In this document: piece after piece, positions 3,601 through 33,200 of the stretch | How the letters are laid out: every line of letters starts with the position of its first letter | How positions within the stretch are numbered: position 1 is the stretch's first letter | Source: Neelides folsomi | Taxonomy: Eukaryota > Arthropoda > Collembola > Neelipleona > Neelidae | DNA length: 64,000 nt | Assembly (NCBI GenBank): GCA_034687125.1 | Contig: JAQGBZ010000087.1 | Coordinates: 143,018 to 207,017, forward strand | Reading direction: 5' to 3' | Notes under the pieces: generated by a model | Databases searched by the model: none | Seen by the model: only the letters and a program-made list of their open reading frames with translations | Told to the model about the DNA's origin: nothing | Made by a program: the position numbers and the translations under genes

Positions 3601-6600
3601 CGCAACAATCTCCAACGATCTCATAAAAGTGTGAATGTTTGAAGGAATGAAGGAGGAAAGATATGGGAAAGATAGTAAAAGGATTCTTAAATGGAAGTTG
3701 TTTATATAATGAGAAGAAATGTTATTTAATCTACGAGGTTTGTTTTTGCACACACCTGTCCAATACGACAGTTTCAATCCGTCGAATGGTGAATACAAAA
3801 GAGCTACTCATATACCATACACACATACCTACCATACAATTACAAATAAATCTTACACATATAAAATATATGTAATAGATTTTATCATACTTTGCACATA
3901 TCATATATGCTACATGTTACAAATAATAAATTCTTATTGGGAGATTTTCTTAATGGGATCGTCAACGAAGAGCGGAGAGTCAGAGGTCATTAAAATGTCT
4001 GGGGATTTCTCAGGGACATTTGACCCAAATACGCTTCAAGAACTTCGCACACCCACACAAGAAAAATTAAATCCAAAAAAACTCATTTGATCCTCGGCAT
4101 CGTCAATTCCTACATCAATTAGCTAATTTAATTACTATTTTACTATTTTTACAATTTATATTATGTAATTGGCATTAATCTTATTGTTAATGCTTAATTA
4201 TTTTTGCACAAATGAAAAATGTAGGAATTACACAAAATGAGAAAATTTAATTCTAAATTTAATTATAAAAATTAATTAAGTATTGAAAAATTACAAAAAT
4301 TGTATTCTGACTTATGCTTTGTCTTCTTGTGCTTTGAAGCGTGCTAATTATTTCAAGTATTTTTAAGGGAATTAAAGGTAACTAAACCAGAGTACATTAT
4401 TATTACTTTATTTACCAATTCACCCTCCGCATTGCACAAATGTAAAATAAAAACAATGAAATCGAATGAATAATTATAACCAGACCTTGTGAATGCCGAA
4501 GTGTATTATTGTGCACAAAAGCAGTTATACTTGTTACAAATAAATGTGTAGCTTTTGCTAATTACTTAATTACACGCTCAATTTATGAATTTTCCAATCA
4601 AATTTTTCCCTAGCTGCTGTTGAGCATTTTGAGTTCCAAACAAATTTACTTTACTTTACTTACTTATTACATTTAAAGTTAGTTAGCATTAAAGACGTGA
4701 TTTGCTCGCAAATCAACGCTCAAAGTGGAAACCCTTCATTTTCCACAAAATTGCCCCAAAGACCCAAAACACTCAGAGACGTTCCTACGTTTGTTCTCAT
4801 GAAATTGTTGAGCCCAAACTTGCACTTTTACAGAAGCCGACGAAATTGCGAAATTTTTGCAAATTTATATAACAAACCTGCAGACATGTGATGTAGAGCA
4901 AAAACGAGTCGAATAAATCTACAACCCGTTGCTAAATAAAGATTGTACAATGTACGACAAAAGTCTAATTAAAATATATGATGATCAAGTTTAGTATTTA
5001 CGAGATATATTTAATTTCGGCACCATATAAATCTATACCTGTATATGCTTTTAAAATATTATATATCGGCATATATTGGCATATGTAAATATAAGATTAA
5101 TGGTCAGATTAAAAGATAAAGGGTAGTCAAAAGGATTGGTGAAATATATTTGATATATCTTTTACATAAATTGTACAATTAAATGTATAGCTTGTTATAA
5201 ATGCCGTCTGTCCGTCTGAGTGAGCGAAAAGTGTTGGACATTTTATTTGTCTAGTAATTAAAGATCGTAACGGATGTTGGTCAAATGGTTCTTTATATTT
5301 ATTCACATCTCGCACACCTTTCTTCTTATTATTCCGCCGACACTTCGCCTCTCCCCCTTAACTCATTTAACATTCGCGTAAATTTACCCACTTTGACTCT
5401 AATCCCTGCAATTAAATTCATCTAGTTTAATTACCCCATCTTATTAAACACACTTCCCCAGTCATAACCGCCACTCTCAATGTTGTTCTTAATGTAAAAA
5501 AAACTCATAACTTGGGTAATGTCCTATTACGTATAATATCAATTTACCTTTCATTTCCATTTTAATAAAATTCTACGTGCGAATTGGTCCAAACCCAGTT
5601 AATGAAACTATTATTGTGCCGACAATTTTTTCCTTATTTTACATTCACTATTATGGACATCCTGTTTTTTAAAATATTCCTAATAGAATTTCTTATTAGA
5701 TCTTAAGATTTCTTATCCTATTTCATTACCACATATTTTGGTTATAGTAAATACAACAGTAAAATAATAATATACTCCACAAGGAAAAAATCTTAAATTT
5801 TTGCAACTTTTTTCCTGGTGGAAAAAAGTCGATTTGGCAAAAATTGATTTTGTATAAAAAACCATTTTGTATAAAAAAATAGTTATGATTTTTGGGTCAT
5901 GTGACTCATCGTCAGATGTGAAGTGGAAGGTTACAGTTGGAATTATGATGGGCGATGGATGAATTAATTCCTTAAAAATTGCGTCATTCCAATTGTGTCA
6001 AAAGCAAAATCAAAGGTGAATAAATTGGTACATTCATAATAGGAATTTTTATTCGCATGTCAAACATCGCTTTACTAACTTTAAGTATGATATATGTAAT
6101 TTAACCACATATGTAATATGTAGATTATATTAGTCATATACACCTGAGCATATCCTGTGGTTCAAAAACAACATCTTAGGGATCATGAAGCGAAACGGGA
6201 ATAACTCTCATTACCATTATTTCAATAAAATAAGAACAATACATATCATTGCAAGTCAATGGTAAGCCAACGGCAAGAAATAAAGAGTTAATTAAAAGCG
6301 AGTGAAATATTCCGGATCTGTCTTGCACTTCTTTTTTACACTCTTTTGATCCTTTTGTCTCACACTTGCAGTTTCCTATGCCTTACCTAACCATTATTTT
6401 CTATCCCTTAATTTGAGTGAACTGGGGAGCGCAACGAGATAAAGAAACAATGATTGGTAATTACCTAATTACAACGGTCCGCTTCTGTTTAGCTCATTCC
6501 TTTAAATTCCATATTGTTCAACTCATTGACAGAATTTCATTCTCAACTTCATTAAATAATACTGCTTTTAATATAGAAATAATATACTTACTATTGTGGT

Positions 6601-7479
6601 ATTATATAGAGTAGTATTATATAAATATATGGTATGTATATGGTTCATGTATTACATAATATAAAGATTGTGATTTTTTATACATTGATAAAATAGTTCC
6701 TTTTTTGATGCCGAAATGAGTCCGAAATCTTATAAAATCATTTCGTGAGTTCTTTGACGTGGTAATTGGACTTTGTGGAATCACGATATTGGAATTCGAG
6801 ATTGTCGGTTTATACAACTTTACCATTATAAAATGTTAAATAGATAAAGTTAAAGAATTATTCAGAGGAAAATTGGGCAAAAATCTCCTTCAATTACTTA
6901 TCTATTATTATTAAATTCTTGTAGAATTTTAATAAGCATGGGTAATATATGGAAGTATTTTCATTTTTATCAGTAGCTTAATTGTGTATCATGAGCTAAA
7001 TTTGTCTTTATGAATGATCTCACACACAACAAGGCTTTTAGCCTCGAGGACTTTTGAATACTTCAAAGGCCCTTCAATAACCCAAAAGGATTTCACAATC
7101 CAAAATGCATTAAAAGGTTCTTTTTCACTCAAGTGGAATGAAATGAGGGAGAGAAGTCAAATTTGATTTTTTATGAACTTTGGGAGCATTTAAGGTGATT
7201 TATTCACCCAAATCACCTTTGATCGCACAAATTATGGTTGAGTGGAGAAGAAAATTTCTTAACTAACCTTTACAATGAATTTTTATAATTAATTTAGCAT
7301 TCTAGAAAAATTCCTATTAAAATCTATTAAAAATTTAATTTAATAATTATTTTGAGAAAATCTTAATGGACTAAAATTAACGATTTAATTCCATTATTGA
7401 GAATAAAAAGAAGAAAAAAATTAATAATCAGATTTTTTGTTAAATCAAAATTACTATAAAATTAACTTTAAAGCTTTAT
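665..7479. other. Intergenic, no supportable gene
   Basis: AT-rich DNA between the start of the carboxypeptidase gene and the MITE at 7482. Short open frames (735-941, 3719-4090, 4697-4891, 6417-6614) lack recognisable domains, flanking splice logic or coding bias. The carboxypeptidase promoter should lie just above 664, but no convincing TATA box was found. A small G+C-richer patch at about 3955-4115 stands out against its surroundings but is not identifiable. Confidence 0.6.
5806..5829. repeat. Perfect 10-bp hairpin with tetraloop
   Basis: acttttttcc (5806-5815) and ggaaaaaagt (5820-5829) are exact reverse complements around a TGGT loop. Just downstream, at about 5849-5878, the word attttgtataaaaaa occurs twice in tandem. 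Function unknown; it may be chance in AT-rich DNA. Confidence 0.5.
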
Positions 7480-7481
7480 AC

Positions 7482-7885
7482 AGGGTGTGTCTAAAGTCGA
7501 TGCGTTTTGTTCAAAATAAATCATATCTTTTTTATTCATTAATCGATTTTTATTAAATTTGGTAGATATCTTCCTTATAATATATAATATCATATAAAAA
7601 TGAAATTTAACTGATCAATTAAACTAAATCTTGGCTTCGATACCAAGAAACCTCATTTCTTAGGTCCTTTTCTGCGAGAAATCACACTCGCAGAAATCAC
7701 ACAATCACACACAAATCACACAAAGTGACTGTCGTTTATTTAATGTTTAACCAATTCGGCTTATATTTGGCTATATAACATATTGATATATTACTCATCA
7801 AATGGCTATCTTAAAAGATTTTTATAATTGCTACCTCAGGTAGAAATTAAATGATTAAAAACGCATCAACTTTAGGCTCACCCTG
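7482..7885. mobile_element. MITE-like element, Tc1/mariner-style, 404 bp
   Basis: The left end (7482-7509) and the right end (7858-7885) form 28-bp terminal inverted repeats with three mismatches, both beginning CAGGGTG. The element is flanked on each side by TA (7480-7481 and 7886-7887), the target-site duplication expected for IS630/Tc1/mariner insertions. There is no transposase frame inside, so it would be non-autonomous. The interior has a short stretch of repeated aaatcacaca words at about 7678-7725. The family assignment rests only on the TIR start and the TA duplication. Confidence 0.85.
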
Positions 7886-7887
7886 TA

Positions 7888-8580
7888 TAGTAAATATGAA
7901 GCTTAATAACAATCCAAATGTATAATCAATGTTTAATCCAACAATGCAAAGCTCACTCATACAATGGTTAAATTAACAATAAAAGCTCAATTCCTTATTA
8001 AAAAATTAATCCTAACAATAAAATTATGATCGTACGGGTCTTAGAGCGGAAAATTCAATTTAGAAAAAACTAAGGTTAAGAGCAATTCCATTTATTTTAT
8101 TTCTTCCCTTTAATTTCATAAATGGTTTTTATTTGGATTGAATCATTGTGGGAATTCCAAAGGCGACCAATTTGTCATTGATCTTAGGGAGGTTGGGATT
8201 CATTCAAATCTGAAGGTAATCGAAGACTCATCTCATTACATGAGATCTTGTAAAAATGTCCTTTTACATCCTGCTTCCACCAACACATGAACCATGTTGG
8301 CCTAAAGGAACAATAACGGATGTCAAACGTTTTTTATGTCTTTTGGTCTTCTGTGAGTACCTTAGGAGAATTACGTTCAAAGTTACCTTATGAGAATTAC
8401 TTTATCTCTATTTACTATTATTTGCTATTACACATAATGAGGGTTGTTCCACGTTATTCCAATGTGTGAGTGTTTGATCCACCACACCTGTTGACTCTCA
8501 CAGACAATTTTCTTACAGGTACATTTTTTTCCTTTGCCCTTCTATGCCTCACTCTCATTTGCTCCATATTCCTACCTGTA
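7888..8580. other. Intergenic spacer upstream of the Gly/Tyr/His-rich gene
   Basis: AT-rich DNA without an open frame of note. Its distal part may hold regulatory sequence for the gene starting at 8692, but nothing specific is recognised before the E-box at 8588. Confidence 0.5.
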
Positions 8581-8587
8581 CTTTTTC

Positions 8588-8610
8588 CACGTGGGGACAA
8601 GAGTATATAA
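8588..8610 (+). promoter_or_regulatory. Core promoter with E-box and TATA box
   Basis: A TATATAA box at 8604-8610 lies 82 bp before the start codon at 8692, placing a transcription start near 8635 and giving a short 5' UTR. A palindromic CACGTG E-box at 8588-8593 sits directly upstream and could bind bHLH or bHLH-ZIP factors. A strong TATA promoter fits a highly expressed tissue-specific secreted product. Confidence 0.75.
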
Positions 8611-8691
8611 ACGAGAGCTCCTTACCGTTTCTGCACACACGTTCCACAAATCTCTTTTGATTCACAAATCAAATACAAAACTCCTACAACC

Positions 8692-9549
8692 ATGAACAAG
8701 ATCTTCGTAAGTAGCATTTTCACTCATAATTTTATACGTTAAAATTCAGTAAAATTTTGTAAAATTTTGCTAAAATATCTTTAATTTATTTTACATTCCA
8801 CTCAAATTCAATAATTCTTTACATTCAAAAGCAATTAAATTTTTAATTGCTTAAAATTCAGTTTTAAAATTTTATTAAACTTAAAAATATAATAAAAATT
8901 CTGAACTTTTAAGTTTTAAGTCGAATTCATTTAAAAATATAAAATATTAATTAAAATTTTCTACATGTTTTATAGTTGAATTATCTTTATCTTGAACTAT
9001 CTTTTCGTTGTAAATTTTATAGATTGTCTTGGGCCTCATGGCCGTCGTCGTCGCCGCCCTCGCCGAAGAGGTGGCCGAGAAGAAAGAAGCCACCACCGAG
9101 CTTGAGACCGCCGAAGGCAGATATTACGGTCACGGATATGGAGGATACGGAGGATATGGCGGGTATGGACACGGATATGGAGGATACGGACACGGATATG
9201 GAGGATATGGTCACGGATACGGTCACGGATACGGTCACGGATACGGACACGGTAAATTATATAACTTTCATAGTATCAATAAGAATCCTAATTTCAATGA
9301 TCTAGTATTCCCATTTTATACTTTGTATATAATTATTTTATTTAAATAAAATGTTTAACTTGTAGGAGGATACTACCGACCATCATACGGAGGATATTAT
9401 GGTGGACATGGAGGATATGGTGGATATGGAGGATACGGACACGGTAAGTTTATTTACCATTATTGAAAGGAATTCGTAACTGTATAAAATAATTTGAATA
9501 ATTATTAATTAATTATATATTTTTAATAGGATTCGGATTCTACGGTTAA
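8692..9549 (+). CDS. Gly/Tyr/His-rich secreted peptide precursor
   Basis: Four exons: 8692-8706, 9023-9251, 9366-9443 and 9530-9549, all with GT-AG introns, giving 113 residues. The ATG lies in a good context (acaaccATG). The product starts with a signal peptide (MNKIFIVLGLM followed by a Val/Ala-rich stretch ending in ALA), then an acidic segment of about 18 residues (EEVAEKKEATTELETAEG), then RYYGHGYGG and a long array of GYGG and GYGH units, interrupted by YYRPSY at the exon 2-3 junction, ending GFGFYG. There is no cysteine. The layout, signal, acidic pro-region and Gly-rich mature part, resembles Gly-rich antimicrobial or neuropeptide-like precursors and also some cuticle proteins; sequence alone does not decide. 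The array is encoded by 9- and 12-bp codon repeats (GGA TAY GGW CAC), so length variation is likely. Confidence 0.88.
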
Positions 9550-9667
9550 GCTATTTGCTTCGAATCGAAAAGAGCTGCCATGAAGGAACCAACTGGGAGT
9601 CAATCGAGGAGTTGGACAGACAAAATAAGATTTATTTAATTGGCTATATTTTTTATACGTTTTTTAT

Positions 9668-9673
9668 AATAAA
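9668..9673 (+). promoter_or_regulatory. Polyadenylation signal of the Gly/Tyr/His-rich gene
   Basis: Canonical AATAAA 119 bases past the stop codon at 9547-9549, giving a compact 3' UTR. Confidence 0.75.
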
Positions 9674-9699
9674 GCAATCTCCATTTGTGCTTTAATTCA

Positions 9700-10900
9700 C
9701 TATTCTTATTCAATTTAATTAGCTCCAGTTAATTCTAACGGTTCGTAACATTCACTTTTCATATATTGACATATCCCAATATAACTCCACAATAATTGTC
9801 ATTTGAAGCATTAGGACAAAATTTTTCATAGAAGCAATTTTATGCTTACATGTAAAATACCATACAAGTACAGTGTATTTTACAAGCCATTTATTACTAC
9901 TAAATACTGAAGATATTACAAACATGAATGGTCATATAAAATACGGATTTTAAGGGCTCGAATTTTTATATTTTAAGGAATCTTATAATGTAAAATTAAT
10001 AAAGATAGGTCTTTGATTGTAAGGAGCATTGGAGTTGTTTAAAATGCGTGAAGGCGGTAGTCTCCCCTCAGAGAGCGTATAATTTCCATTTTACAACTGG
10101 TAAGGTTGATTAGATCGCCTTTTAATAGCTAATGACGGCGCCGAACCCAATGAGATAAAAAGAATATGTGAATTGGAAGAAGGGTTCGATTCTCGAGTTA
10201 TAAACAAAGAACTCCAACCACAAACTCCCCTTCAACTACAAAGGTGTGAGTTGGATAGCAAATAGCAACAAAGGTAAAATCGAAGACTCCTCACAAAAAC
10301 TCATTTGTTATTCTCTAGCACTCCTCATTCTATGTCAATGGCATGTTCATCATATCATACAAACTAATAGATCTTCATATGATAAATACAAATACTTCAT
10401 TAATATCATATATTATCATATATCAAAATATAATATCTACCTTACTATTATCATATATTGTATCAGATCTTATGTGAAGCCTCTTCTTAAGTGTATAAGA
10501 TATAAAAATAACAAAAATATGGTAAAAGGTATATAATTGGTAATTTAATTTGGTTTAAAGAAGAGTGTTTATATTTTGAAATGACGTATTCAATGCACAT
10601 TCTTTATTTGAATCATTTAAGGATCATGATAGATGGAGAAGGACGTTGTACTTATAAGAGGAAATTGTCTATAGGCAGATATTGGGAAGATGTTTAGGAA
10701 GATGCATAGGAAGATGTATAGGTAGATGTATAGGAAGATGTATTAGGAGTGTATATGAAGATGAATGTGGTTATAAAAAGGATTCCAAGAACGAGGGATT
10801 TAATTATTTGGGATCTTTAATGTGAGCAGAGGAATCTGGTTGGGAGCATGTGGGGAAGTGTGTGGGTTGGCGTGGGTTTGAGGAAAGGGATACTTTTTTA
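9700..10900. other. Intergenic spacer, no supportable gene
   Basis: No domain-bearing open frame. The open frame at 10246-10536 is low-complexity and AT-driven. A 12-bp tandem repeat at 10681-10740 is listed separately. The distal 5' UTR or promoter of the Smad gene probably lies toward the right end. Confidence 0.55.
10681..10740. repeat. 12-bp tandem repeat, five units
   Basis: Five consecutive units of the form tataggaagatg, each differing from the consensus at 0-3 positions, exactly 60 bp. A decayed minisatellite with no coding role seen. Confidence 0.8.
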
Positions 10901-11184
10901 ATAATAGGCAAAGAGGTATCCATTCGGGTCGTGGAGTCAATTGAAGGAGTCGAGTGGGAGACGGCGACGTAAAGTCGGGGCCCCTTCGTTTTCCTCCTCC
11001 ATTGCCTTCATTTCCTCCAACTCTCCAGTGAAGCTCCTTTTTAATTCCTCTAATAATTCCGTCTCTCTACAACCTTGGATTCCTTTGTTGGCCAATTCAA
11101 ATCAAGAGCTTGAATTAACAATCGTGGATTGGATAGTTAAACTAAGCGTTAATTAATTAATTAATTAAACTAATTGTTAATTAA

Positions 11185-12840
<1,656 letters not shown>

Positions 12841-12876
12841 ACCCCAACATTAATTGGGAAATGAACAATCATGGAT

Positions 12877-12882
12877 AATAAA
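12877..12882 (+). promoter_or_regulatory. Polyadenylation signal of the Smad gene
   Basis: AATAAA 37 bases past the stop codon ending at 12840; an unusually short 3' UTR if used. Confidence 0.65.
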
Positions 12883-12899
12883 TATCAAGATCTTGTATA

Positions 12900-13900
12900 A
12901 AGCTGACTTGTATGCAATTATCCTATCTTGAATCTCACAAATACGAACAAATACAATCACGTTTACCTTTTTATAATTTTAACCACTATGATAATTATTT
13001 AGTTTAATTATTAGATATAAAAACAATTTACTAGATTTATTAGTATTTAGATTAAGTTTAAGTTTAAAATAGTTGACGATTCGTTTAATGGTTAAAATTG
13101 AAATGAACCAACAATTGATAAAACAATTTACAAATCAATTCAGTTTTTTCATTTATTATCATGCTGTTATTTTGTGCAATAATAATTTTAAACAATTTAG
13201 ATGTACTTTATTAGTTTTAATTAAAGTTTCTAGACTTAAAACATTAATAAGGCATACAAAAAAATACTTCTATTTTGTTTTTCGCCTATAAATCAAAAAT
13301 TTTAAGATTAAATAGCGTTATATACTTTATATCTAGAAGTTATAATAATAACACTAAAATGATTTATATTTGATTTTTATTCTTTTTTGCTTTCAATGTA
13401 ATTTAGATAACTATTATACAATTAATTTTAAACTTAAAATGTAATAAAATGTAGTTATTTTAATATTTAAGTATATTAACCTACATTTATTAAACACTGT
13501 TAAAGGCCATTATTATGAATAATCATTGCTATTAAATATAAAATGATCAAAATCAATTTTATTTTCATATAAATTTGGTTATTTATGTGTATATTAGCAT
13601 CGTTAACAAAAGACGCTTCTGGGACCGTTCATTGAAACTGAACAAAGGAATTCACATGCTTTAGAATTATGCTACAGCTGGTAAACTTTGAGACAAATAA
13701 GTCGGATACTAAATATCGCCCAACTTATACTTCTCTTCGAATTCTCAATCAATTCGATAATTTAATTCATTTGTAAAGTCAATTTGTCGAATTTCCCTTC
13801 ATTGTCTTTCAAATCTTAGATTTCAATTAAATATCACGTTTGTATAATTTAAACTTATACATTTAAACTAATGCAAAATATTCCACTTCTTAAATAAATT
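12900..13900. other. Intergenic spacer between Smad and BLOC1S2
   Basis: Very AT-rich, no supportable gene. The open frame at 13073-13291 has biased composition and no domain. The BLOC1S2 promoter is expected near the right end, where a 5' UTR exon ends at 13953. Confidence 0.55.
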
Positions 13901-13953
13901 ATAATTTATAGCGTAGAAGGTGTCAGATTGATTTTCTTTGGAGTCTGTGTCTG

Positions 13954-14048
13954 GTAAGAATTTAAACATTTGTTTTCAAATTAATCTAAATGTTAAACGT
14001 CAGTTTAAATATTAAATAAATCATTTTGAAATTCAATAGTTTTGTTAG
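13954..14048 (+). other. Probable 5' UTR intron of BLOC1S2
   Basis: A good donor (ctg|GTAAGA at 13954) and acceptor (tttgttAG ending at 14048) bracket a 95-bp AT-rich segment, with the start codon only 15 bases after the acceptor. This would place a non-coding first exon just upstream of 13953. Confidence 0.6.
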
Positions 14049-14063
14049 GTCGATTATAAAGCC

Positions 14064-14906
14064 ATGAGTGAGACAGAAGTTAAGGAAGAGAAACTCAAGG
14101 ATGAAAAACCTGGAAAAGAAGTCGAAGATGTTCCTCCAGTTTCTGTTTCCGTTTCAAGAGAATCGTCAACTGGAGAAGGAAAACCTCAACTTCTCAAACC
14201 AAGTATGTATTGATTGGCTATGTAATTATTGATTATGTAAATGACAAAAATGGATAATAAAATTGTTAACTTTATTGAAATTTTAAAAGATTCTGTGATG
14301 ACGGAGAGCACTGGAAGTTACGAACCTGTCGAACCACACGATTCCTCCCTTAACCAACTGGCCAGAAACATGTTCGAAAAATCGGCCGAGTATTTGCAAG
14401 GAGAACTTCTTCAAGTTCAAGTAATAATACAAAAATGATTGATTTTCAATATTTTGAATAATTGAGGAGTTTATTGAAATGATTGAAAATTTCCAATTTG
14501 TATCGAAATTGAAAAATCTAATCATTTTTACCTGTTATAGGAGGATTACAGACTTCTTGAGAATCTGAATATTGCAACTGCAGCGAAATATTCAGACATG
14601 AGGCAGATTTCTGGAAACGTCGCCAAAAGGCTTGAAGAGCTAAATGAAAAATGTAATTGGGGATTATTTAACATTGCTTTCTCACATATTTAACTTTTTA
14701 TCTTATTTAAGAAAATTAGTTTTTAATAAAAGATTATGGATTAATTACAATTTCATTGATTTTGTTCAGTTCGAAGTCTCGCTCCTCTTCTTCTTCAAAT
14801 TGATCAAATTGAAGAGAGCGTGAACAAATTGGAACAAGCGGCCTACAAATTGGACAAATATTCGAAGCGTCTTGAGACAAAATTCAAGCAATTGGAAAAA
14901 AGATGA
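14064..14906 (+). CDS. BLOC1S2: BLOC-1 subunit 2 (biogenesis of lysosome-related organelles complex)
   Basis: Coiled-coil subunit of BLOC-1, shared with the BORC complex in animals; it acts in lysosome-related organelle biogenesis and lysosome positioning. Four exons: 14064-14202, 14290-14420, 14541-14652 and 14770-14906, giving 172 residues. The N-terminal ~80 residues are charged and poorly conserved ([15 protein letters not shown]). The conserved part starts [17 protein letters not shown], continues [10 protein letters not shown] and [21 protein letters not shown], then [20 protein letters not shown] and [19 protein letters not shown] at the very C-terminus, matching the family closely (human form: [36 protein letters not shown]). 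All junctions are GT-AG and keep frame. Length is typical once the extended N-terminus is allowed for. Confidence 0.96.
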
Positions 14907-15118
14907 AAATTCATATCATTCTTCGCCTTCTTCAAGTCAATCCTTGAATACTAGTCTTAATGATAATATTAATTAACTATTAATTACATTTTAATTAATT
15001 ATTCGTACAAGTTTTGATGAAAATTGTGGTTTTAATGAAAATGTGAAAAAATGCTTTTGAGCTTTTCCATGATTGTTATGTCGTTGCAGAAAGTTTATGA
15101 AAGTCATTCCATGAAATT

Positions 15119-16985: not shown

Positions 16986-17224
16986 TCAAGTTTTATCTTC
17001 CTGTTTAATCTGCTTCCGCAATTCGAACTTCATCCCGTGTTGTTTCTTCATGTGAGTTTTCCAATAATCCTTCCGCTTGAACAAAGTCTGACAAATGGCA
17101 CAATGATAATTTCCCGGAAAGTGGACTCGATAATGCTGGTAGTCGTTTGACACGATTTTTCCGCAGAGCAAACATTGTTTTCGGTCAATTCGATCGCCCG
17201 ATCCGCCCACGCCCTCCGACACAG
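16986..17224 (-). CDS. fru: Alternative zinc-finger exon C of the fru-like gene
   Basis: Most distal terminal exon. It encodes two fingers: [18 protein letters not shown] (C-x2-C-x9-H-x3-H) and [22 protein letters not shown] (C-x2-C-x12-H-x4-H), joined by the short linker FPGNYH, then a basic tail ending KQEDKT before the stop. The chosen acceptor (AG at 17225-17226) follows a pyrimidine-rich stretch; a second in-frame acceptor at 17255-17256 would add 10 residues. Both give the same phase as exons A and B. Confidence 0.85.
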
Positions 17225-20200
17225 CTTCAAAGATGAGACAAGGTCGAGGAGCTCCTGGAATTCCAATCACCCACCACCGTCATTGAAACCCTCAACCAGT
17301 TTTAACCTCACTAATTTCCCTACTTTCCCCTTCACCTCGTTTAAAAAAGTGGAACGGTAAAGGAAGCTACAACTAAATTTAAAATTATAATAATTGTCAA
17401 TTAAATAATTTTTTAATTTAATTCTACTTGGCTTTAATTCAAATAAAAAAAATCTACAAAAGAAATAAAATTTATTGAAAAATCTACGCTCAAAAAATAT
17501 ATTCAATTCAAAAACTACAATGAAAATTACCAAAAAAATTCACTTTAGAAATTTCGAGAGATTTTGTCAAAAATCTTAGGATATTTACAAGAATTCTCTA
17601 TAAAAAAGTAAAAAAAAACAACTACAAAGAACATGCGAGGAATTAAAAATAAGAAGGAATTTTAAAGGAGAAAATAAAAAAGGAATTTGTTGTTTACACT
17701 TGGCACCAATTCCAACCACCCGCATTAAAACTACTTTCAATTAACTAATTGTAAGGTAAATAAAAAAATAAAATGATTAAAAAGCCTCGCTAAAGGAATC
17801 CCTCACTCGCCAAACCCCCAAAAGCGAAAAATAGGAACTGAAATTAAATGATTTGTGTGTAAGTGAATGGATCAGTGAATTTTTTTTATTTTTCCAATTT
17901 CAGACACTCGATGGTTCTTTCACATATTTGCTTTTTTACATTCATCGCTACATTTATATTCTTAATACACCTGACCTTAATTACAATATAATGCTCATAT
18001 TGAACTAATTTTAAAGTGATAAAGGTAATATATGTAATATGAATGTAATTGTTCCATCTATAATATTTCATTCCATTTTTTAATCAAGTAATTTAAAATT
18101 ACCTTACGTTGTCAATGTAGACTCTTCAATTCGCAACTTATTTATTTTAATAAGAATTAATTAAATTTTAATTATAAACTTGTAATATACTGTAAATATA
18201 TTATCATATTATTAATTATATTAATTATGGAACTAGTTGTAGTACAATTGACAGTAAGAAGGTTTTTTATATTTAGTAATATAGCCTTGTGTGTGAAATA
18301 ACACGAGAGGGACGAACATTGAAAAATTACCTTTTTATAAAGATTTATTTGTATAATTAATAAGAGTCATATATTTCAGTAATATATTAGTAATATATCA
18401 TGTGTAGTTAATTGTAGTACGTATAATAATATATTCGCATATATTTAATATAATATATAGAATCCAATACACGAGAGAGGCAGTATTACAACATTTACCA
18501 TTTATGTGTCTACGTGGCTAAATTTTTCAAATATTTTTATAAATTTTGTAAGACAAACATTATAATTCTTTTTTTCCTATTAAATGACAGTCCCCGAGTT
18601 GTAAGAAGTCTCTGAGAAGTACACGTTTTATATTTTTAGTAAGGCGAAGAAGAAATTACAAATTCTCTTCTTTTTAGTCATTTGTAAGATTTAATTTTAA
18701 ATTGTAATTAATTAATTTTAGGAAAATTACCAATTTAGAACAATTTAAGTATAATCTTAATACATGTGTGTATAGAAAGTTCACGTACAATATGTATTGA
18801 TGTATTCAATGCTTAAATAGGTTTTACAGTTTTTTTAAAGTCTCAAGAGATTGTTAAAGGAGGGGAATTTGAAGGTTTTAAAAAATATCCAACGTTTTTC
18901 CAACGTTTCTGTACAATGTGCAGGAATTACATCAAATTTTACCGTGTGTGATTATTTATTTAATTTGACTAAAATCTAATAATTTTTTTTAAAAGATATC
19001 CAAAATCGACAAAGCCAATAAGCCAAGTCTAAATCGTAATTGTAATTAGATTTATTTATATATGGTCGTTGAAAAAAATGATTGTTGATTTTAATATTGA
19101 TATATCAAATTCGTTTTTAAGGTCAAATTGACCATAATTAAGTGTAAATGAAATTAAGGAATTATTTTAATTAAGAAAAAGGTGACAAGATTGAAAAAAG
19201 AAAATGAGACTAAAAGTGAAGGAAATGATTGTTAAAACATTATTTAGCACTTGCACAATAAAACCAATGCCTTAAAGTTAGTTAATTAAACATATTATGT
19301 AATTAAACATCCATTCTCAAATAAGTCAAATGCATTTCTTTCGCATGTATTCTCTGAAATTATTATTAAAGGTACTTAAAATTAAAGTTATTTAATTAAA
19401 AATTAGCAATAAAATAACATTTGAAGTTTTAGGACTAAAGGCAGGCAGAATTATTAAACCACGTGTGTATTTGTTTGAAAACTGAAGTTGGATTAAACAA
19501 ACTGAAATTAACTTTTAAAGTTAATTAACTTTAAATTACAAATTACAACTCATTAAATAGTAATTAAATCCTCTAAAACTAATCTTAATAATAATAAATT
19601 TTAATGATTATTAAATATTAATGAATATGGTAAGTTTTTGGTATTCGTCAACCGGACCAAACGAGTTTTTGTGTCTGTGTGTGCACCATGAAATATAAAA
19701 GTGAGACTTTTACATTTGAAAAACACATTTTTACAAATCAAAGGTCTACGTTACTTTTTTTATCATTAATGTGTGTACAATTACAATTCTTAAAAATAGG
19801 CATGACTCTAATTGTGTATCTACATATTCCTCTAATCGGTTAATTACAATTTACTAAAGGTCTTTTCAAATAGACCAAATTACCTTCCTTACAAATTACG
19901 TATTCAATGGCTCAATTAACATTTAACTCTATTTGTAAGATTTAGATTTACGTGTGTTGGCAAAACATAAAATTTGAATTTAATAACAAAAAAATTCCCT
20001 CCAATTTACCCCTTTAGGACTAAAAACTGAAATTTTAATCCGGGAATTTTTAAATACTATTTTAAATGTAATTTACATTTTATTCTTTGTAATATTAAAC
20101 CACCGTGCATTTCATTTACCTAAATCCTTTAAAGTTATTATTTTAATTCCTACTTCTTTTATGTACAGAGAGTTTAGTCAAAAAAATAATAATGAATAAA

Positions 20201-23200
20201 TGTTTGTTAGGTACGTGAGAACTGTTTCCCTTTTTTCATATAACTTCCCATAAATTTACACTTTCGCGCCTTCGTCCACCTTAACTTTTTAAAAAATGAC
20301 TTCAAAAGTTCCCTTTGAATTAAAGCTGCCTTCCATTACAGAGAACGCGGAAAAAAATAACTAGAATTCCATACGTATCTTTCCATCTTGGAACGAAAAA
20401 AAATTAATATTTAGCCTAAAACACCCTCACTATTTAATTGTACAAATACTGTCTGTCTTCCTATTTAATTCTTAATTGACCGAAAAAACCAGAGCAAAAA
20501 GCACTCACCGAGTTTAAATATACTTTTAAATTTCCCTTCCAAAACCGAAAGTATTTAAAAAATATATTCCAATAATGCTAAAAACTACAATTTTATAATT
20601 TTGGTCTAATTCCTCAATTTTTCATCACGTGATTATCTATATATTTATTTTTTTAGTTAAATATAAAGGATTTAAAATAATAAAAACAAAAACAATTCTC
20701 ATTTGTGTAAAATACCTGAATTCCTCACTTATTAATATAATTTATTAATTTGTGATTAACATTAATTAATTAATCTTTGTCATTTATTTAATGACACTTT
20801 GTCTCATTTAAAGGCACAATTTTTGGGATCTACTTTTGTAAAATAAAACCTACATTTCGAGTGTTTTAGTATTTAGGACAAGTGAAATTAAAGTTAAATA
20901 AAATTAATAAACGAAAAAAAACAAACTTTCCTCTTTCACACAAAAAGTTTTATAATAAATTGAATAAATTCCTATTTAGTAAAATACCCCTTCATACCTT
21001 TTTCTATCTAATAATATTAAAAATTAAATCTACTCAAAAACTATCGTTAAAACTAATGATTGACGTCAAAATTTGGTTTGGATTATATTAAAGAATAGTC
21101 TGTATTTGATTGCACAAAGTGTATCTCTTTTCCTACAATAAAACTTTCCATTGTAAATTGTAAATTATCTCTCAAGCAAAAAGAATTCGTCAAAAGTGTG
21201 TCTGTTGGTTTAATTTTAATAAAATTTAAAATTAACACACTTAAATAATGAAACTCTTTTAAATCCTCTACTAAAACTGATGTGTACACATTTCCTATAG
21301 GTATGTTAAATAAATGTATTAAACCCCTCTGGCCCTCCAAAATCCCTACATCGATTTGGCCAAATTTGGCCAAACGGATTTTCAAACGTTTTTTAAGTTT
21401 AATTTAACACAACAGTTTTTCTTCTTACTTTTACAGTTTTTTAAGCCTTTTTAATCTTAGAAGCTATTCCAATAATTAGTAAAGTATAATGGATTACTCG
21501 GGTTTTTGAACGATTGAAAATCCGTTTTTATAAATTCGCGTCTGGCGCGGGTTGTAGTATCACACAGGGGAGTGTCGGAGGTCTTTTCCGGTGAAGTCGG
21601 CTTGGGCGGCAGAGATGAGGGACACAAGGGTCGAAGCGGCCGAGCAGTTTGGACTCGTGGAGTTTGAGTTTGAGTTGTTTGGGCCGGCCGGTGAGGACTT
21701 TGGCTTCCCGTGCTTCACCCGGACGTGGGCGTTGAGGTTGTCACTTCTGGTGTAGACACAGGGGCAGTAGGGACAGGAGTAAGTTCCAGGCATGTGGACG
21801 AACCTGTGTTTCCGTCCTCTAACCAACTTCCCACACAATTTGCACCGCTTCAAATGCGGGCTCCCCTTCACCTTCTCGAATATCGAGCCGTAGATGCGCC
21901 CTGAAAATCACCCCCAAGGTCATAAGTCACCCTACATAAGTCACCAATCTCCAAAGGTCAAATAACTCAAAGATCCAAAAATTTCTCCCTCACCTCACTA
22001 CTTTAATTCCCTCAACTTTATCCCATAATTGACTAACAAAATTATTTGGTTCCTGACTTGGACAATTTACTCCTATTTTGAAACTCATTTACAAATTAAC
22101 TACAATTAATGTCAGTAATTAATTAATATCAGTAATTAATAAAATCAATTAAATGATGTTGTATAATTAATCAAAATAGGTAATATATAATAATTACCAA
22201 TAAATTAAATTTAGTTTAAATGAGATATCGATCTTTCCTAAACAAACAGCTAACAAAGGTGAATGAATTGAATGAGAGAAATCATTTGGAACGACTATGT
22301 GAGAAATGCCCGAGTTTAATTAATTAAATTAAAAATGAAAGGCAATTGACAATTTGTCCTTCTTCATTTACATCATTTCAAAGAACACCTGGATATTTTG
22401 AAATTGGGGTCAAAGGGGGAAGGGACGAAACGAGATAAAGGCACAAAGCCTCAGAATTCACTCACTCAGAAAGGATCCCATTTAATATTAGCAAATTGGC
22501 AGTAGAGAAAAGCGTAACAGGTTGAATTAACTCCAATTATCAATCCATTTGTTGGAAGACAACAAAGGCAGAGTGGAATGAAATATTTAATTAAACCTTC
22601 GCCAAACCACCAACATGAATCTCCACTTTCCTCCAAAAATCCTAAAATTCAATTTTTACCTAATTTTACCATTAATTGGTTTTATTCCGATTAATTTGTT
22701 TGATAATTTTGGAAATTAAAAAAATTGAGCAAAAAACCGGGAAAGTCATTTTGTGCAAATCTTATTTCGTCGCAATGAATAGCAAGATGGTAATTTTGCA
22801 TTATAATGTGAATGATTTTGAATTTAATTGGAATTACTTTGCATTTTCGAAGGACTATTTTGTGCAGAGTGTTGCAAAGGGAGTTGGATGAGGAGGTTAA
22901 AAATTGTATTTAGCGATGCGAGGACAGGAATGACCTCGTAAGATGGAAATGAGGGCTTTTAAACATCACGTCTAAACATATTCCAGAACACTTCACAATA
23001 ATTTGTGATTACTCCACCGCATGACATGAATATTTTGAACCATGGTTCTCTCACTATCACCATTACCATCATTTGAATAATATAGCAATAGTCATCAACG
23101 TCATTACTTCTCTTTTATTAACACATGGAGAAATATCCTAAGATCTACATATATCAAATACAATAAATATAAATATATTTCATATTTAAAAGTATACCAA

Positions 23201-23680
23201 GAACGTATTTAAAGTTATAATATATCTAACTACATAACATAATGTATAGATCATCTCTTCTTAATCTCTTTGTAATTCTAATGCTAATAGGATTTATATA
23301 TTCTCAATATAACAGTTTGACTTGCATTGTTAACAAGGATTGTATTTAACATCTTCATGTTGATTCGTCCGCTATCTTCTTATAATTATGACGAGCTTCT
23401 AATTACCATATACTTATGTATTTGGTAATTTTCCTACCTTATTTCCCTATTTATGGAGTAGCAATAAGGTCTATTATATTAACGTAAGTCTCATTTATTT
23501 AGAAATAATGATTAGACCATTTTTCTACATTTGGCAAAAACTACTCATTTCTCCTTTTTAAATAAAGCTTATAAAGATTACCAATCTTCTATCAATTTAA
23601 AAAGTATTTTATATTCTTTAAGTTAATTTTATAACTTTTTCGGCACCAAGAATATATATCTCAAAGTAGTAGATATTTTA

Positions 23681-23711
<31 letters not shown>

Positions 23712-26105
23712 CAGTACCTAATTTTATGTCTTTAATATTTAGATATTTAACAGATCTATTTGTATATAATATGGAATTAATTGAGTTGGAAGAAATTGAA
23801 TTTGCTTTTGACTTTGGGTAATCTCATGAGGGAAGTCGTTGTTTGCAATTGACAGTGTTGATTTTGTGGTAGACTCTGAGGTGATTTCTGAGAGTTGACT
23901 CTCTCGGGTACTCGTGTCCGCAAATGGAGCAAGAGAACCGCCGTGGGCCAGGCAAGAGAAGAAGCCGAGGCCCGAGTCTCGCCCGTCGAGACTCTGCAAC
24001 AAACAACAACACCTCTTATTTCTCACAAAAATATACAACTTCAGAAATCTCCTCAGATTCTTCCTAAATTCAAACTTTCCCCTTTAAACTAATAAACAAT
24101 TAAATACAGAAATTGTATTTAATTTAACATAATATTAACAGTGTATCCACAAATTTTCCATCTAATTCTTAAATGATTTATTGGAATATTTTAATCAAAT
24201 TCGAAATTGTCATTTGGCCATACTAAATAACGAAGTAAAAAGATGACCACGCATGCTCTCACATATTTAGGAGAAACTCCATCGGTTCCATTAAACCCTC
24301 ATTCAAATTCATGTAAAGCTTCATTAAATATTCAACAGTCTGCCTTCAATATTGTAGTTGGCAATAAACTAAAAATATCCTATCAATTTCACCATTTGCC
24401 TCTCTCCACTCTCATCAACATCTTTCCCATGTCCAATTCCCTTAACTAACTATTTCCTATCTCACTAATTGCTTTCTAAAACCTTTTAACTTTCCACCAT
24501 TTTTAATTTTCACAATTTTCCCTCCCCTGATTTTGCCAAATAGAAAACAAGGTAGGTATATGAAAATGAGGATGATGATGGAAATTATGAATTTATTAAA
24601 TCGCCGGGCAGAAATCAGAAATGGACCCCTCTCTAAAAACACTACTTTTTTAAGATATTTAATTAACATTAAGGAAAATACTTTGTCTTGGACGCCAAGT
24701 GTTTTTCGTAGTGAGGTGAGAGGGAAAAGAAGCGAAAAAGAAGGAACAATGAGGCAACTAAAGGATAGAAAAAGGTAAATTCAAATTAAATCTCACCGTC
24801 TGTCATTTCAAGTCCGTCCGCATTTGAAGATCCCATATGGTCCGAGTCGCCTCCTTCGCACTTCATTTCATCGTCACTCGATTTGCCCTAAAGGTCAAAG
24901 GAGGTCAAAACTTAACAAATCTTTCATCCATCACTCAAATATCTAATTAACTATATATTATTTAACTAACTCTGTGTAAAAAGTTAAAAAAATTGGCTGA
25001 ATATTCAAATTAATTTATATTTGCATAATTTAGTCAATTGTAGTTAAATATTAATGGAAAAGTAACGAGATAATTTTGAATTTAATTTGAATGTTGAATA
25101 AATTGTAAATTGTAATTGCAAAATTTAAGTACGAGTAATGAGGCAGCATTAGGATAATAGCCAATCGTATAGCGATCGTCCATCCCATCATCGTCATCAT
25201 CATCGTCGTCGTCTTCTACTTTCAAGTTCATATTTGGGTCGACCTCAAACTCGTCGTCGCTCTTCGTCCCTCCAGAGTCTCCAATCACAGGCATGAGGAA
25301 AGAAGTCGGGTCGAGGATGGGGGCAGGTGAGTCTTTGTCTCCCCCCTTCCCTTTCCCAATGGCGATGAGGGCAGGGGGAGACGGCCGACTCCCGGAACTT
25401 GACACGATCGGAACAACTTCCATTCCTCCTCGATGAAGCCCAGTTTCCAATTTCAACAATGCTTCCTATGAAATTAAATAATTGAAATTAAATTATTATC
25501 ATTATCAATTAATTAATTATTAGTAATACTTAGTAATGGTGACTGATGATTAATGAAATTAATTATCTTACAACATGATGGTTATTGGATGGTACAATAT
25601 CTTGGTCCTCATTGGAGCTCGTCGAAGGCCTTCTTCGTTTCCTGGACGGGGGATCCGGTCTGGCTGAGGAGCCTTCACTGTGTTTGTTATTTTCTTGGGG
25701 ATGATGATGGTGATGGTCTTTCGCAGCTCCGTCGGGGCCCTCGGTCAGCCCGCGGATCTTCAGGGCCTCGGCGGTCTTGAGGAAGTCCGAGAGAGAGGAT
25801 TGACTCACGTTGACCTCCCCTTTATACATGAAGGAAATGAGGGCCTTCATTTCAGCTCCCTTGATGTCCTTCATGAAGATGATGGGATGCGGGTGGGAGT
25901 TGGAGAGGAGCAGCGATTCAAAGTACGGGGAACACGCTGAGAGCACCGTTTGGTGCGCTTTGAACGTCTGACCCTCACAGGCCAAAGTGACGTCCGTGAG
26001 GGACTCTTGCTGTAACAGCCGGTCGAGAACTTCCATGAAATTACTTGCATGGTTGTTCCACCGGAGACAAAAATGTTGGTCCACGCCCCCCATCCTACAC
26101 GATAC
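16986..26105 (-). CDS. fru: fruitless-like BTB zinc-finger transcription factor with three alternative terminal exons
   Basis: Nuclear transcription factor of the insect BTB-ZF group. Shared exons: 25572-26105 (BTB), 25133-25465 and 24797-24887 (linkers). Alternative terminal exons: 23824-23993 (A), 21560-21900 (B) and 16986-17224 (C). The last shared exon ends with one base of a codon, and A, B and C each begin with two bases, so each splices in frame, giving about 371, 428 and 394 residues. The BTB motifs [15 protein letters not shown] and [12 protein letters not shown] fit fruitless better than lola, abrupt, psq or mamo, which have HK rather than HQ; lola-like remains possible. In flies such genes choose 3' finger pairs by alternative splicing, with roles in neural wiring and, for fru, sexual behaviour. 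The 5' UTR must start upstream, since an acceptor lies at 26106-26107. Confidence 0.88.
17255..21559. other. fru: Intron between alternative exons B and C (with 3' UTR of B)
   Basis: About 4.3 kb of AT-rich DNA with no recognisable exon. The minus-strand open frame at 21083-21385 lies where the 3' UTR of exon B is expected and has no domain. No third finger pair was found by scanning for the C2H2 spacing. Confidence 0.55.
21560..21900 (-). CDS. fru: Alternative zinc-finger exon B of the fru-like gene
   Basis: Acceptor TTTTCAG with AG at 21901-21902. The exon opens [19 protein letters not shown], then two fingers: [17 protein letters not shown] (C-x2-C-x8-H-x3-H) and [22 protein letters not shown] (C-x2-C-x12-H-x4-H), linked by MPGTYS. 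A Ser/Asn-rich tail of about 50 residues follows ([16 protein letters not shown]) to the stop at 21560. It has the highest G+C of the three alternatives and the longest tail. Confidence 0.9.
21903..23823. other. fru: Intron between alternative exons A and B (with 3' UTR of A)
   Basis: AT-rich, no recognisable exon; the plus-strand open frame at 22676-22891 is not supported. It includes a (TA)n microsatellite at about 23686-23711. Confidence 0.55.
23686..23711. repeat. (TA)n microsatellite
   Basis: Uninterrupted TA dinucleotides, about 13 units, just past the 3' end of exon A on the minus strand. Confidence 0.85.
23824..23993 (-). CDS. fru: Alternative zinc-finger exon A of the fru-like gene, only one intact finger
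   Basis: Acceptor TTGTTTGTTGCAG with AG at 23994-23995, preceded by a strong pyrimidine tract. It encodes [20 protein letters not shown], then one C2H2 finger [22 protein letters not shown] (C-x2-C-x12-H-x4-H) and a short tail to a TGA at 23824-23826. The segment before the finger aligns in position and in its PG linker with finger 1 of exons B and C, but has lost both Cys and both His. Splice phase is identical to B and C. Confidence 0.82.
24797..24887 (-). CDS. fru: Shared linker exon 3 of the fru-like gene
   Basis: A 91-nt exon too short to be obvious as an open frame. Acceptor CCTTTAG (AG at 24888-24889) and donor G|GTGAGA (from 24796). It encodes [16 protein letters not shown] and [14 protein letters not shown] plus the first base of a Gly, Glu or Ala codon. 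It enters in phase 0 from exon 2 and leaves in phase 1, which is what lets all three finger exons join. Confidence 0.8.
25133..25465 (-). CDS. fru: Shared linker exon 2 of the fru-like gene, acidic
   Basis: 333 nt in phase 0 (111 codons). Acceptor TTTCATAG (AG at 25466-25467), donor CTC|GTACTT. It starts [14 protein letters not shown], continues with a Pro/Ser/Gly-rich stretch, then [15 protein letters not shown] followed by a run of nine Asp. LKVE fits the sumoylation consensus (hydrophobic-K-x-E). The donor is weaker than the others, but no better in-frame GT lies near. Confidence 0.8.
25572..26105 (-). CDS. fru: BTB exon of the fru-like gene
   Basis: Coding from ATG 26093, 174 codons in phase 0; the donor GTAAGA begins at 25571. 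A BTB/POZ dimerisation domain covers residues about 5-118: [62 protein letters not shown], and [21 protein letters not shown] with IRGLTE. After it come a His run ([10 protein letters not shown]), a basic likely nuclear localisation signal RKRRRP and a Ser-rich stretch. An acceptor TTTTTTAG (AG at 26106-26107) 12 bases before the ATG shows at least one non-coding upstream exon. Confidence 0.95.
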
Positions 26106-29651: not shown

Positions 29652-30227
29652 CTATGTGTGATGTATGGGAAATGAAGGAAGAAGGGTATATCTATAATTT
29701 TGGTATAATTCTATTATAGTTGTATTATGCAAAAAACAGGGAATCAACCCAGATGATTCCAATTGGGGCAATAAAGTAATTAAAGTGACCTTTATCGGAA
29801 GGAGATCCTTCGGTTCCTCGTGGAGTCTTATGACTGCAGGAGTTCCATGGGAGTGACTTGGACGAAGGCCGGGAGGATTGAACTCTGCGAGGTATCTGAA
29901 CTCGGAGGATACTTGGCGTACTTTGAGAGCCGTCGGCTCCAAGTCCACCCAACCTCCTCCCTTCCCCTCGACACATTCGCAAAGTGGCGAAGGAACGGCA
30001 AAGGGAGTTCCCCTCACACTCAACATTCCTGCCCTGAGAGTCCTTCGCAGAGCAACCCAGGGATTTGCAGAGAGGGGTGAGGAGGAGATCCATTCAACAT
30101 TATGGAGCTTCAGACTCACAATCCTCATCATCATATGGTCATATCCCTTATAGGAAAATAAGTATCTCTGAGGGGCATCCTCGTCCAAGGTTATGCAACT
30201 TAGATGTAATACTATTGGTAATTTCAT
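29652..30227 (-). other. Longest unassigned open frame of the desert (191 codons)
   Basis: ATG at 30227, stop at 29652. No signal peptide, domain or repeat is recognised. Two plus-strand frames and one more minus-strand frame are open across the same segment, which argues for a stop-poor non-coding island. The ATG lies inside an imperfect palindrome (CTATTGG ... CCAATAG, about 30209-30233). Confidence 0.2.
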
Positions 30228-33200
30228 GCCAATAGTTTTTCACACGTTCAGAAGGTCCTTAGCTAAAGGACTTATCTAATTTATTAACAAATAAATCTTC
30301 AGAATACAAATACAAATATCCTAAAGAGAATTTAAAGGATTTGGTAGTAACGAAATCATGGTAGCTATTATTTTTAACTTTGAATATTTAATATTAAAAT
30401 AATTAAAATATTTATTAATGAACTTAATGCTACTTATAACTACTTTACTTTTAGTAAGTAAAGGAGCATTTTGATGGTTCAATTAAGGAATGTTATTCAA
30501 AATAGGAGAGTTTGGTAATTATAGTTTTCGAGGTTTATGGATCCATGTAACATATCTTTACATTGTTGGGCCTTTATGGGTGTTTGGTTAATTAAAGCAT
30601 TGTGGAGAGTGAGCTGATCCAATAAAGGGGATGTATGGATTCTAGCAGGGGCCACGAGGCGCGGAATGAGTCAATGCACCTTGGGAGGGACGAAGGGAGA
30701 TTCCAGACCCAGAGGAGTTATATAACTCCCCCGACCGTGTGCAGGTTCCCTTTTTCCAGCCTTAAACCTTCTACACCTTCCACCCAACCCCAACAGCCCC
30801 AAACCCTTGCAAAATCCTAAACTCCCATTCTATGTACAAAATGGTGTAAGTGTACTTCATCCCACTTCTATATAAAACATCATTCACCGTCATCATCAAC
30901 CAACCATACCAAGAGAGGAATCTAGGCCCTGGCTTTTTATATGAATAATATCTAGCATTGAGAGTGCCTTTGGGTCTTATGTGCAAAGCTGTCTATCCAA
31001 GGATTTGTACGTTTAGCAAAGGGATTTTAATGAAGGTTCATTCTGATGTAAGTTCCAATAAAGTACAAGCAGAAAAAAGTACAAAAACTACAAGCACAAG
31101 CACTTTGAGAACTGCGAGCACTTGAGTTTCATTTATACATTGGCATACATATTGAATACTCGTACATTGGAATATTCCATGTTGGAATACTATTAGATTG
31201 TGAATTGTGAGAGTACTTTGTATTTGCTTATTGGAGTACTTTGTACATTTGACTATTTTGTATGCATTTAGTGTATTCTGTACATTGGAGCCTTTGTATA
31301 TATATATATATTACATTATGTAGATGATTGTATTTGTACAATTGAATATATTGTAAATGGTAACGTTGTATGAGAATCTCATAGATTGAAATATTGTAGA
31401 TTGGAATATTGTTGATTGGAATATAGTTTTGGTCAAAGTGAGTACTGGATGGAGCCGAGGCGCATATATGGGCAAAGTTCGTCCGTAGTGAGGAATCCTT
31501 GATGGGGAGAGAGGATGTTGCGAAAAGGAGGCTGATGGAGGTGAGGAAGGAACAGAGATGCCTTGGAGATTTGGCAAGAACTCCATTACATTCACGTCCC
31601 TTTTTTACTCTCCCTCCCCCACGCCCTTAGACGCCCTTCAAAACTCCCAGCTCCTCTCATCCCTAAACTCTCGCTACATTCTCCCTTCAAAATGATCCAT
31701 TCAAATGGAAATACGCACGCCACCACTCAGCCTTCTATACCATATATATTTACATTCTAAATGTAACAACATGGAAAAGTCCCCGTATGAACAAAGTATA
31801 ACAAATCTTGGATGAATACAGATACTCATATATTAGAAATGTAACAACGCTATATAGCCTACAGATATAACCTTGCTCAGAGTAATTTAGATCAAATTCC
31901 CATCATGTATGAAATATTTATATATGGATGTATTTAACTAATACAGATATTATATGTACTAAAAGGACAGTGCTAAGAAAATGAAGAGTATATAGTTAAG
32001 TACTAAGAAGTAATAATTATAAAGGACTCTGCGTAGTTATTCTTGCGTGATTCTCATTCTAGTGTCTTTAAGCCTCTTTTAAGATGGAGGTTCGGTGTAA
32101 GGAAGTGTGTGTGTAATAAATTGAGGGCAAGGAGGTCGACCTGAGGAGAAGAAGAAGGGCACGCTTAAAAATAAACTTTTTCCTCCTCCTCCCAAGTCAC
32201 CATCTGCATGAAGATGCCCCTTAACACACACACGCCGATTTACCCATTTCAACACAACGATGGTTCAAACATATGAGGAGCACGAGCCAAAGGCTTATGC
32301 CAAGGGACACACGTCGACCCGGTCTTAAATATAAAGAACTAATTATAAACTCCCAGATCTTCAAAGTCTTCAACTCTCAATAGATAAACTCATTATAGAT
32401 CCAAACAGACATTCGGATTTCAACGTCCTTTACAGATATTTAAAGGACTTGACTTAAATAAAAAGGTCTTAAATAAATGTTTTGAAACAAATGTTGTAAA
32501 TGAACTTGAGTCATACAAATGGTCAAATATACATAATAAAAATAAATGGGATAAATACGAGTTTACAAGTATTAAAATGCATCTGATATTAAGTATTTAC
32601 AGATACTATAAATAAAAGCTACAAGATTTATATTTATTATGTAGATTTACTACGTTGTATAATAAAGCTAATTAACTTTCAAATTATTCAATAAACATAT
32701 TGTTTAAAAACAGTTGGAGATTTTAACACAGAGAATTAAAACCAGATTTACTATGCTCATTTCCATTTACTAATAAATCTGTCGCTTACTCAATAATAAT
32801 ACAAAATCCGTCGTTAGAGCCATAATGTGAGTCATTGAGTCATTTATAAATAAGATAATAAAAGTTCTTCAACTCTCCGACGTATGATTTGATATCATTT
32901 GCTCTTGTTACGTTCATTCATTCAACATGATTTTTTTACATTTATAATAATAATGGGAGTTCAAATGTACAAAAGTAGTTTATAAGACTTGTGGATAAAT
33001 ATCAGTTCCATGTAGGGTTTGATTCGATTCAGTGTTGACAAACTTTGATTGAAGGCTAAATGAAATTAAAGATATCTCATAATGTCTTTTTAATAAATAA
33101 ACTTCTCAAGTGAGTCTTTAAGCTCATTGCTCATACCTATTACTTATTTAAACTATCTGTATATGAACCCTTATATGAATCCTTAATAATTATCCTAATA

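Follow-up and report, generated by a model that had tools for sequence, protein, structure and literature searches.

Alternative last exons carrying zinc fingers behind a common BTB part are already known from fruitless (fru) genes of insects and crustaceans, and by analogy the locus described here would be a further fru-like gene that leaves the known principle unchanged. The published account of the fru-like gene of Penaeus monodon lists exons of 87, 95, 594, 243, 90, 761 and 197 bp, of which the final pair are alternative finger ends, with proteins of 393 and 478 aa and a finger domain that covers 51 aa in one isoform (PMC8858584). In mosquito fru, common exons C1-C5 are followed by the terminal exons ZnF-A, ZnF-B and ZnF-C, as described for Aedes aegypti (PMC3572092) and Aedes albopictus (PMC11943076); one of these two papers speaks of 'mutually exclusive terminal exons'. 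For A. aegypti, ZnF-A and B were identified in silico, while RT-PCR was used to check the exons of A. albopictus. The A. aegypti gene measures 533 kb, with intron 4 alone taking up 424 kb (PMC3572092). Drosophila fru is described with five 3′ alternative exons (A-E) that encode different fingers, three of them binding different DNA motifs, and with male-specific P1 products (PMC3852243). For the planthopper Nilaparvata lugens, three proteins (374, 377 and 433 aa) are reported that share one BTB domain and differ in their ends; the 374- and 377-aa proteins carry different ZnF domains, a recognised ZnF being given for only two of the three, and the BTB domain is 61.8% similar to that of the fly (PMC11050625). 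The fly gene lola likewise combines a TTK-type BTB domain with many C2H2 ends, 17 of its 20 isoforms having different fingers, and its description includes trans-splicing (PMC11426971).

The locus analysed here very probably represents a fru-like BTB zinc-finger transcription-factor gene whose linker exon would be joined by cis-splicing to one of three last exons (ends 1 to 3; Table 1). All parts of the gene lie on the minus strand, in order and within 9.1 kb (26105 down to 16986) of the window, that is, the whole 64-kb stretch under analysis (C87:143018-207017), which extends to the contig end in a genome of 75.1 Mb and 840 contigs. Splice sites were scored with fly frequencies as weights, not trained on this genome, and ranked among the 697 GTs and 717 AGs of the minus strand between 27000 and 12300.

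Table 1. Predicted exons of the fru-like gene, in window positions, with splice-site ranks among 717 AGs (acceptors) and 697 GTs (donors).
Feature	Position	Strand	Content	Acceptor rank	Donor rank	GC
Common BTB exon	25572..26105	-	534 nt; whole BTB domain	13	87	0.534
Second common (connector) exon	25133..25465	-	probable; entered and left in phase 0; 3′ boundary uncertain	42		0.52
Linker exon	24797..24887	-	91 nt	6	3	0.505
Alternative last exon 1 (putative)	23824..23993	-	one C2H2 finger (Cys at 23931); stop TGA 23826-23824	5		
Alternative last exon 2 (putative)	21560..21900	-	atypical short motif and standard C2H2 finger; stop 21562-21560	33		
Alternative last exon 3 (putative)	16986..17254 (or from 17224)	-	atypical short motif and C2H2 finger; stop TGA 16988-16986	38 (17254) or 53 (17224)		

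The BTB exon matches PF00651 with 88.7 bits (E 3.7e-25). Its ATG lies at 26093-26091; between this and the acceptor at 26105 the frame contains no stop, and a coding exon further upstream is therefore possible. The exon is left in phase 0 through a weak donor (GTAAGA at 25571), and a GT-AG intron of 106 nt separates it from the frame of the connector, the probable second common exon. Seven in-phase GTs lie in this frame, all weak (rank 102 to 560), giving a length of 333 nt or shorter in-phase options such as 246 or 222 nt. The connector has no Pfam match; its GC content contrasts with 0.213 in the intron after 25133, in keeping with values of 0.45-0.57 in the exons versus 0.21-0.32 in four measured stretches between them. 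The linker, the last common exon, is entered in phase 0 and left in phase 1 with one base (G) carried over.

This order of common exons resembles the published layout of P. monodon, where 594, 243 and 90 bp precede the alternative last finger exons, versus 534, 333 (or fewer) and 91 nt here; layouts and not sequences are compared, and the limits behind the 90 versus 91 of the linker come from BLASTN on the shrimp side (PMC8858584). Two ends are published for the shrimp gene, whereas there are three here, as in the mosquitoes. In contrast to mosquito fru, in which the BTB domain is split over C1 and C2 (PMC3572092, PMC11943076), the domain occupies a single exon at this locus.

A model's earlier reading of the sequence only had proposed that a 91-nt common exon ends with one codon base (G), that three downstream acceptors each leave two bases before a finger frame, and that the short linker acts as a phase adapter. 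All of this held: the exon runs exactly from 24887 to 24797, its splice signals are strong on both sides, and it converts phase 0 to phase 1. The acceptors named in that reading (23993, 21900 and 17224) all fit, as does 17254, and the best-scoring acceptor in the open frame of each finger (23993, 21900 and 17254) leaves two bases. With the single base from the linker donor, all three joins are in frame. The predicted isoforms with three different ends on one BTB domain could likewise be built at the sequence level, as each of the 20 exon chains tried, which combined four finger starts with five options for the second exon (its omission being one), was open to a single terminal stop; the connector donors tried were four of the seven in-phase GTs, namely 25288, 25243, 25219 and 25132. 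Phase agreement by itself is modest evidence, with a nominal chance of (1/3)^3 that rises to about 1/9 given the homology of ends 2 and 3 (see below). Exons, frames, phases and fingers are nonetheless confirmed as far as sequence goes.

The fingers themselves differ in quality. Against the Pfam family zf-C2H2 (gathering cut-off 25.2 bits), end 1 scores 25.8 bits, end 2 scores 30.2 bits with its second finger only, and end 3 stays below the cut-off with 17.9 bits. The first motifs of ends 2 and 3 are short, atypical and finger-like (C-x2-C-x8-H-x3-H and C-x2-C-x9-H-x3-H, respectively), and neither has a Pfam match over the cut-off. A strict C2H2 regular expression with a spacing of H-x3 to 5-H found three matches in the window (23931, 21775 and 17102), every one within a finger exon, and the 64 kb held no further strict finger exon; a version restricted to H-x3-H matched nothing in the window. 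A looser scan returned seven matches, five of them in the finger exons and two non-standard ones elsewhere (34318 on the plus and 27784 on the minus strand). These results bear on the proposal that each finger belongs to a gene of its own or to a frame open by chance. Spacings of 1.9 and 4.2 kb between the finger exons would suit separate genes, but no in-frame ATG precedes the finger in any of the three ends, strict fingers turned up just once in 100 first-order Markov windows, and the best acceptors all share one phase. We therefore regard this proposal as hardly credible.

Whether such a gene should be called fru or lola was addressed through its BTB domain. It shows the start motif FCLRWNN, a mark of the TTK type, and is thus a BTB/POZ domain of this type at the N-terminus. 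In comparison with eight fly reference domains, some of which may be inexact, identity was highest to fru (67.8%), followed by ttk (58.4%) and lola (54.4%), the other five scoring lower; lola is hence third of the eight and not the nearest. When the fru reference was used as the query among 15 loci of the same genome, taken out of 36 BTB places, the window came first (67.8%) and the locus on contig C103 next (55.8%). With the lola reference, by contrast, three other loci matched better than the window. The relatives of the window BTB domain within its own genome start at 57% identity (C103). A feature of the fru family, 3′ exons that can replace one another, bring different C2H2 fingers and join in one phase, is present at the sequence level. 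By sequence, PDB returned generic BTB and C2H2 matches, the best for the BTB domain being a ZBTB17-BCL6 chimera; among the 60 matches listed of 86, 91 and 110 were the fly BTB protein CG6765 and, for end 2, fly tramtrack fingers, and none of those listed was named fruitless or lola. Viral contigs contained no relatives. Three paralogues (C103, C179 and C16) were compared over loci of ~3 kb only. A further paralogous BTB gene (C6:89891) is followed by just one finger within 20 kb downstream, versus three in the window.

The rival naming sees here not the fru orthologue but a BTB gene that carries several finger ends and is lola-like or of another TTK-group type. It draws on the similarity of all TTK-group BTB domains, which here includes the 54.4% to the lola reference, and on the mixed names of crustacean proteins: fru-like genes have been described in shrimp and crab, yet the orthologous shrimp protein of P. 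vannamei is annotated 'longitudinals lacking H/M/V-like' (PMC8858584). OrthoDB gave fru orthologues in Diptera only, according to the lola study (PMC11426971). Against the rival naming stand the best identity of eight to the fru reference, the better fit of the lola reference to other loci of the genome and the likeness of the layout to the published P. monodon fru-like gene (PMC8858584). We consider this rival unlikely. The comparison with the fly reference sequences favours fru over lola as a lead, not as formal orthology; the fru-like layout proposed in the sequence-only reading is backed by sequence and by similar published layouts.

For the fru-like gene, we infer the following course of expression from the DNA. 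Transcripts would share the BTB exon, the connector and the 91-nt linker, whose donor would be joined in cis to one of the three last exons, all of which have a C2H2 finger or fingers and a stop of their own. The choice of last exon would be coupled to cleavage and polyadenylation at the chosen exon; where this is last exon 1 or 2, the RNA would be cut and given its poly(A) tail ahead of the exons that follow. One BTB half would in this way receive alternative DNA-binding ends, in predicted proteins of 371, 428 and 404 aa (start at 26093, connector to 25133, end 3 from 17254). The earlier term 'mutually exclusive' fits insofar as each of these last exons is an alternative that ends in its own stop; they are not mutually exclusive internal exons, and their exclusivity is part of the same inference. 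The 1200 nt past the three stops contained 6, 10 and 3 poly(A) hexamers, versus shuffle means of 6.6, 6.3 and 6.2, hence no clear excess, and no branch-point-like motif was found in the last 60 nt before any of the finger exons. Our confidence is slightly lowered because clear poly(A) and branch-point support is absent.

These same signals enter into another reading, according to which the choice is not simply one among three finger exons, as some of them would be rare, dead or spliced serially. It is favoured by the lack of clear poly(A) signals, by the derivation of the model from DNA and not from transcripts, by end 3 being the weakest in Pfam and, as regards serial splicing, by good internal GTs in end 2 (21718, 21871 and 21803, at ranks 7, 13 and 30 of 697). 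However, donors at these three sites would give the wrong phase for end 3, the best internal donor of end 1 ranks only 164th of 697, and the C2H2 ligands are kept in three open frames. On balance, serial or dead finger exons appear improbable, to much the same degree as a lola-like gene.

The start of end 3 allows two solutions. The AGs at 17254 and 17224 are both acceptors of the same phase, leaving two bases, and differ by ten codons with no effect on the frame. The proposed 17224 was thus right in phase, although 17254 scores higher (1.99 versus 1.20 bits). Homology to end 2 is split: the local alignment score is 116 with 17254 versus 112 with 17224, while 18 codons precede the first finger in end 2, compared with 26 (17254) or 16 (17224) in end 3. 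An IFE-V segment shared by the two ends was considered as an argument for 17254 and rejected, as aligners do not pair those residues. End 3 may accordingly start at 17224 instead of 17254.

Two regulatory features hinted at earlier, trans-splicing and sex-specific splicing, found no support. Trans-splicing of the ends from separate pre-mRNAs has precedents in fly lola (PMC11426971) and mod(mdg4), but here the exons are ordered on one strand within 9.1 kb, so that cis-splicing suffices, and no mark of trans-splicing was noticed on inspection of the sequence. We judge it very improbable for this gene, which in this respect, as in having a BTB domain nearer to the fru reference, would depart from lola. 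As for sex-specific splicing, mosquito fru has a sex-specific P1 region with TRA/TRA-2 sites (PMC3572092, PMC11943076), whereas none was detected here: allowing at most two mismatches to the Tra/Tra2 13-mers used, six near-matches were counted on the strand of the gene and five on the other, versus 6.8 expected per strand from 20 mononucleotide shuffles; such a search would miss sites that have diverged, or a P1 region lying past the end of the contig. Two of these Tra/Tra2-like sites lie 7 nt apart (25556 and 25549) within the intron after the BTB exon. Regulation after the FruM system was rejected as a candidate given the lack of any excess of such 13-mers.

Several other genes or frames were seen around the locus. 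A Smad gene on the plus strand (11185-12264), with the MH1 domain over two exons and the start of MH2 (PF03165, PF03166), converges on the fru-like gene. Upstream of the latter, a galactosyltransferase (PF01762) occupies two exons on the plus strand (50126-51382), and a 195-aa open frame on the minus strand (29652-30239), which lacks a Pfam match and overlaps a 122-aa frame, lies upstream of the BTB exon. A Gly-Tyr-His-rich repeat frame (9023-9349, plus strand) perhaps belongs to a cuticle protein; it gave a sub-threshold glycine-rich match only.

Elsewhere in the assembly, contig C742 is a near-complete mitochondrial genome of 15,157 bases (1-15000 analysed), whose gene order looks ancestral pancrustacean. 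ARAGORN placed a tRNA-Leu(taa) between cox1 and a frame taken as cox2, and a tRNA-Leu(tag) next to a frame taken as nad1; of these protein frames, only cox1 was tested with Pfam. The order cox1-L2-cox2 is described as generally pancrustacean, unlike that of chelicerates and myriapods (PMC2194727). The genome thus most likely belongs to a hexapod or crustacean; a chelicerate source, which its size had brought into consideration, was rejected on the mitochondrial gene order.

The three ends of the fru-like gene differ in their relationships. When end 2 was searched against the 75-Mb genome, end 3 was its nearest relative (40% identity, E 9.3e-8; next match E 0.0019), and with end 3 as the query, end 2 was conversely the best other match (40% identity, E 2.0e-7; next E 0.0016). 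By sequence, ends 2 and 3 are thus homologous. In both, a short finger-like motif precedes the second finger, and exon duplication is therefore the simplest account of their origin. End 1 lacks a partner of this kind; elsewhere in the genome it is matched best (E 1.7e-4) by a many-fingered frame. A tentative scenario, to which we give somewhat less than even weight, is that the common ancestor of crustaceans and insects had a three-ended fru with a phase-locking linker of ~90 nt, and that one end was later duplicated in the present lineage, giving rise to ends 2 and 3 with their short, atypical first finger.

The locus would bear on the age of exchangeable fru finger ends. As a compact fru-like gene, with ~9 kb from the BTB exon to the last finger in a small pancrustacean genome, it may also allow the choice of last exon to be studied without the huge introns of the mosquito genes.
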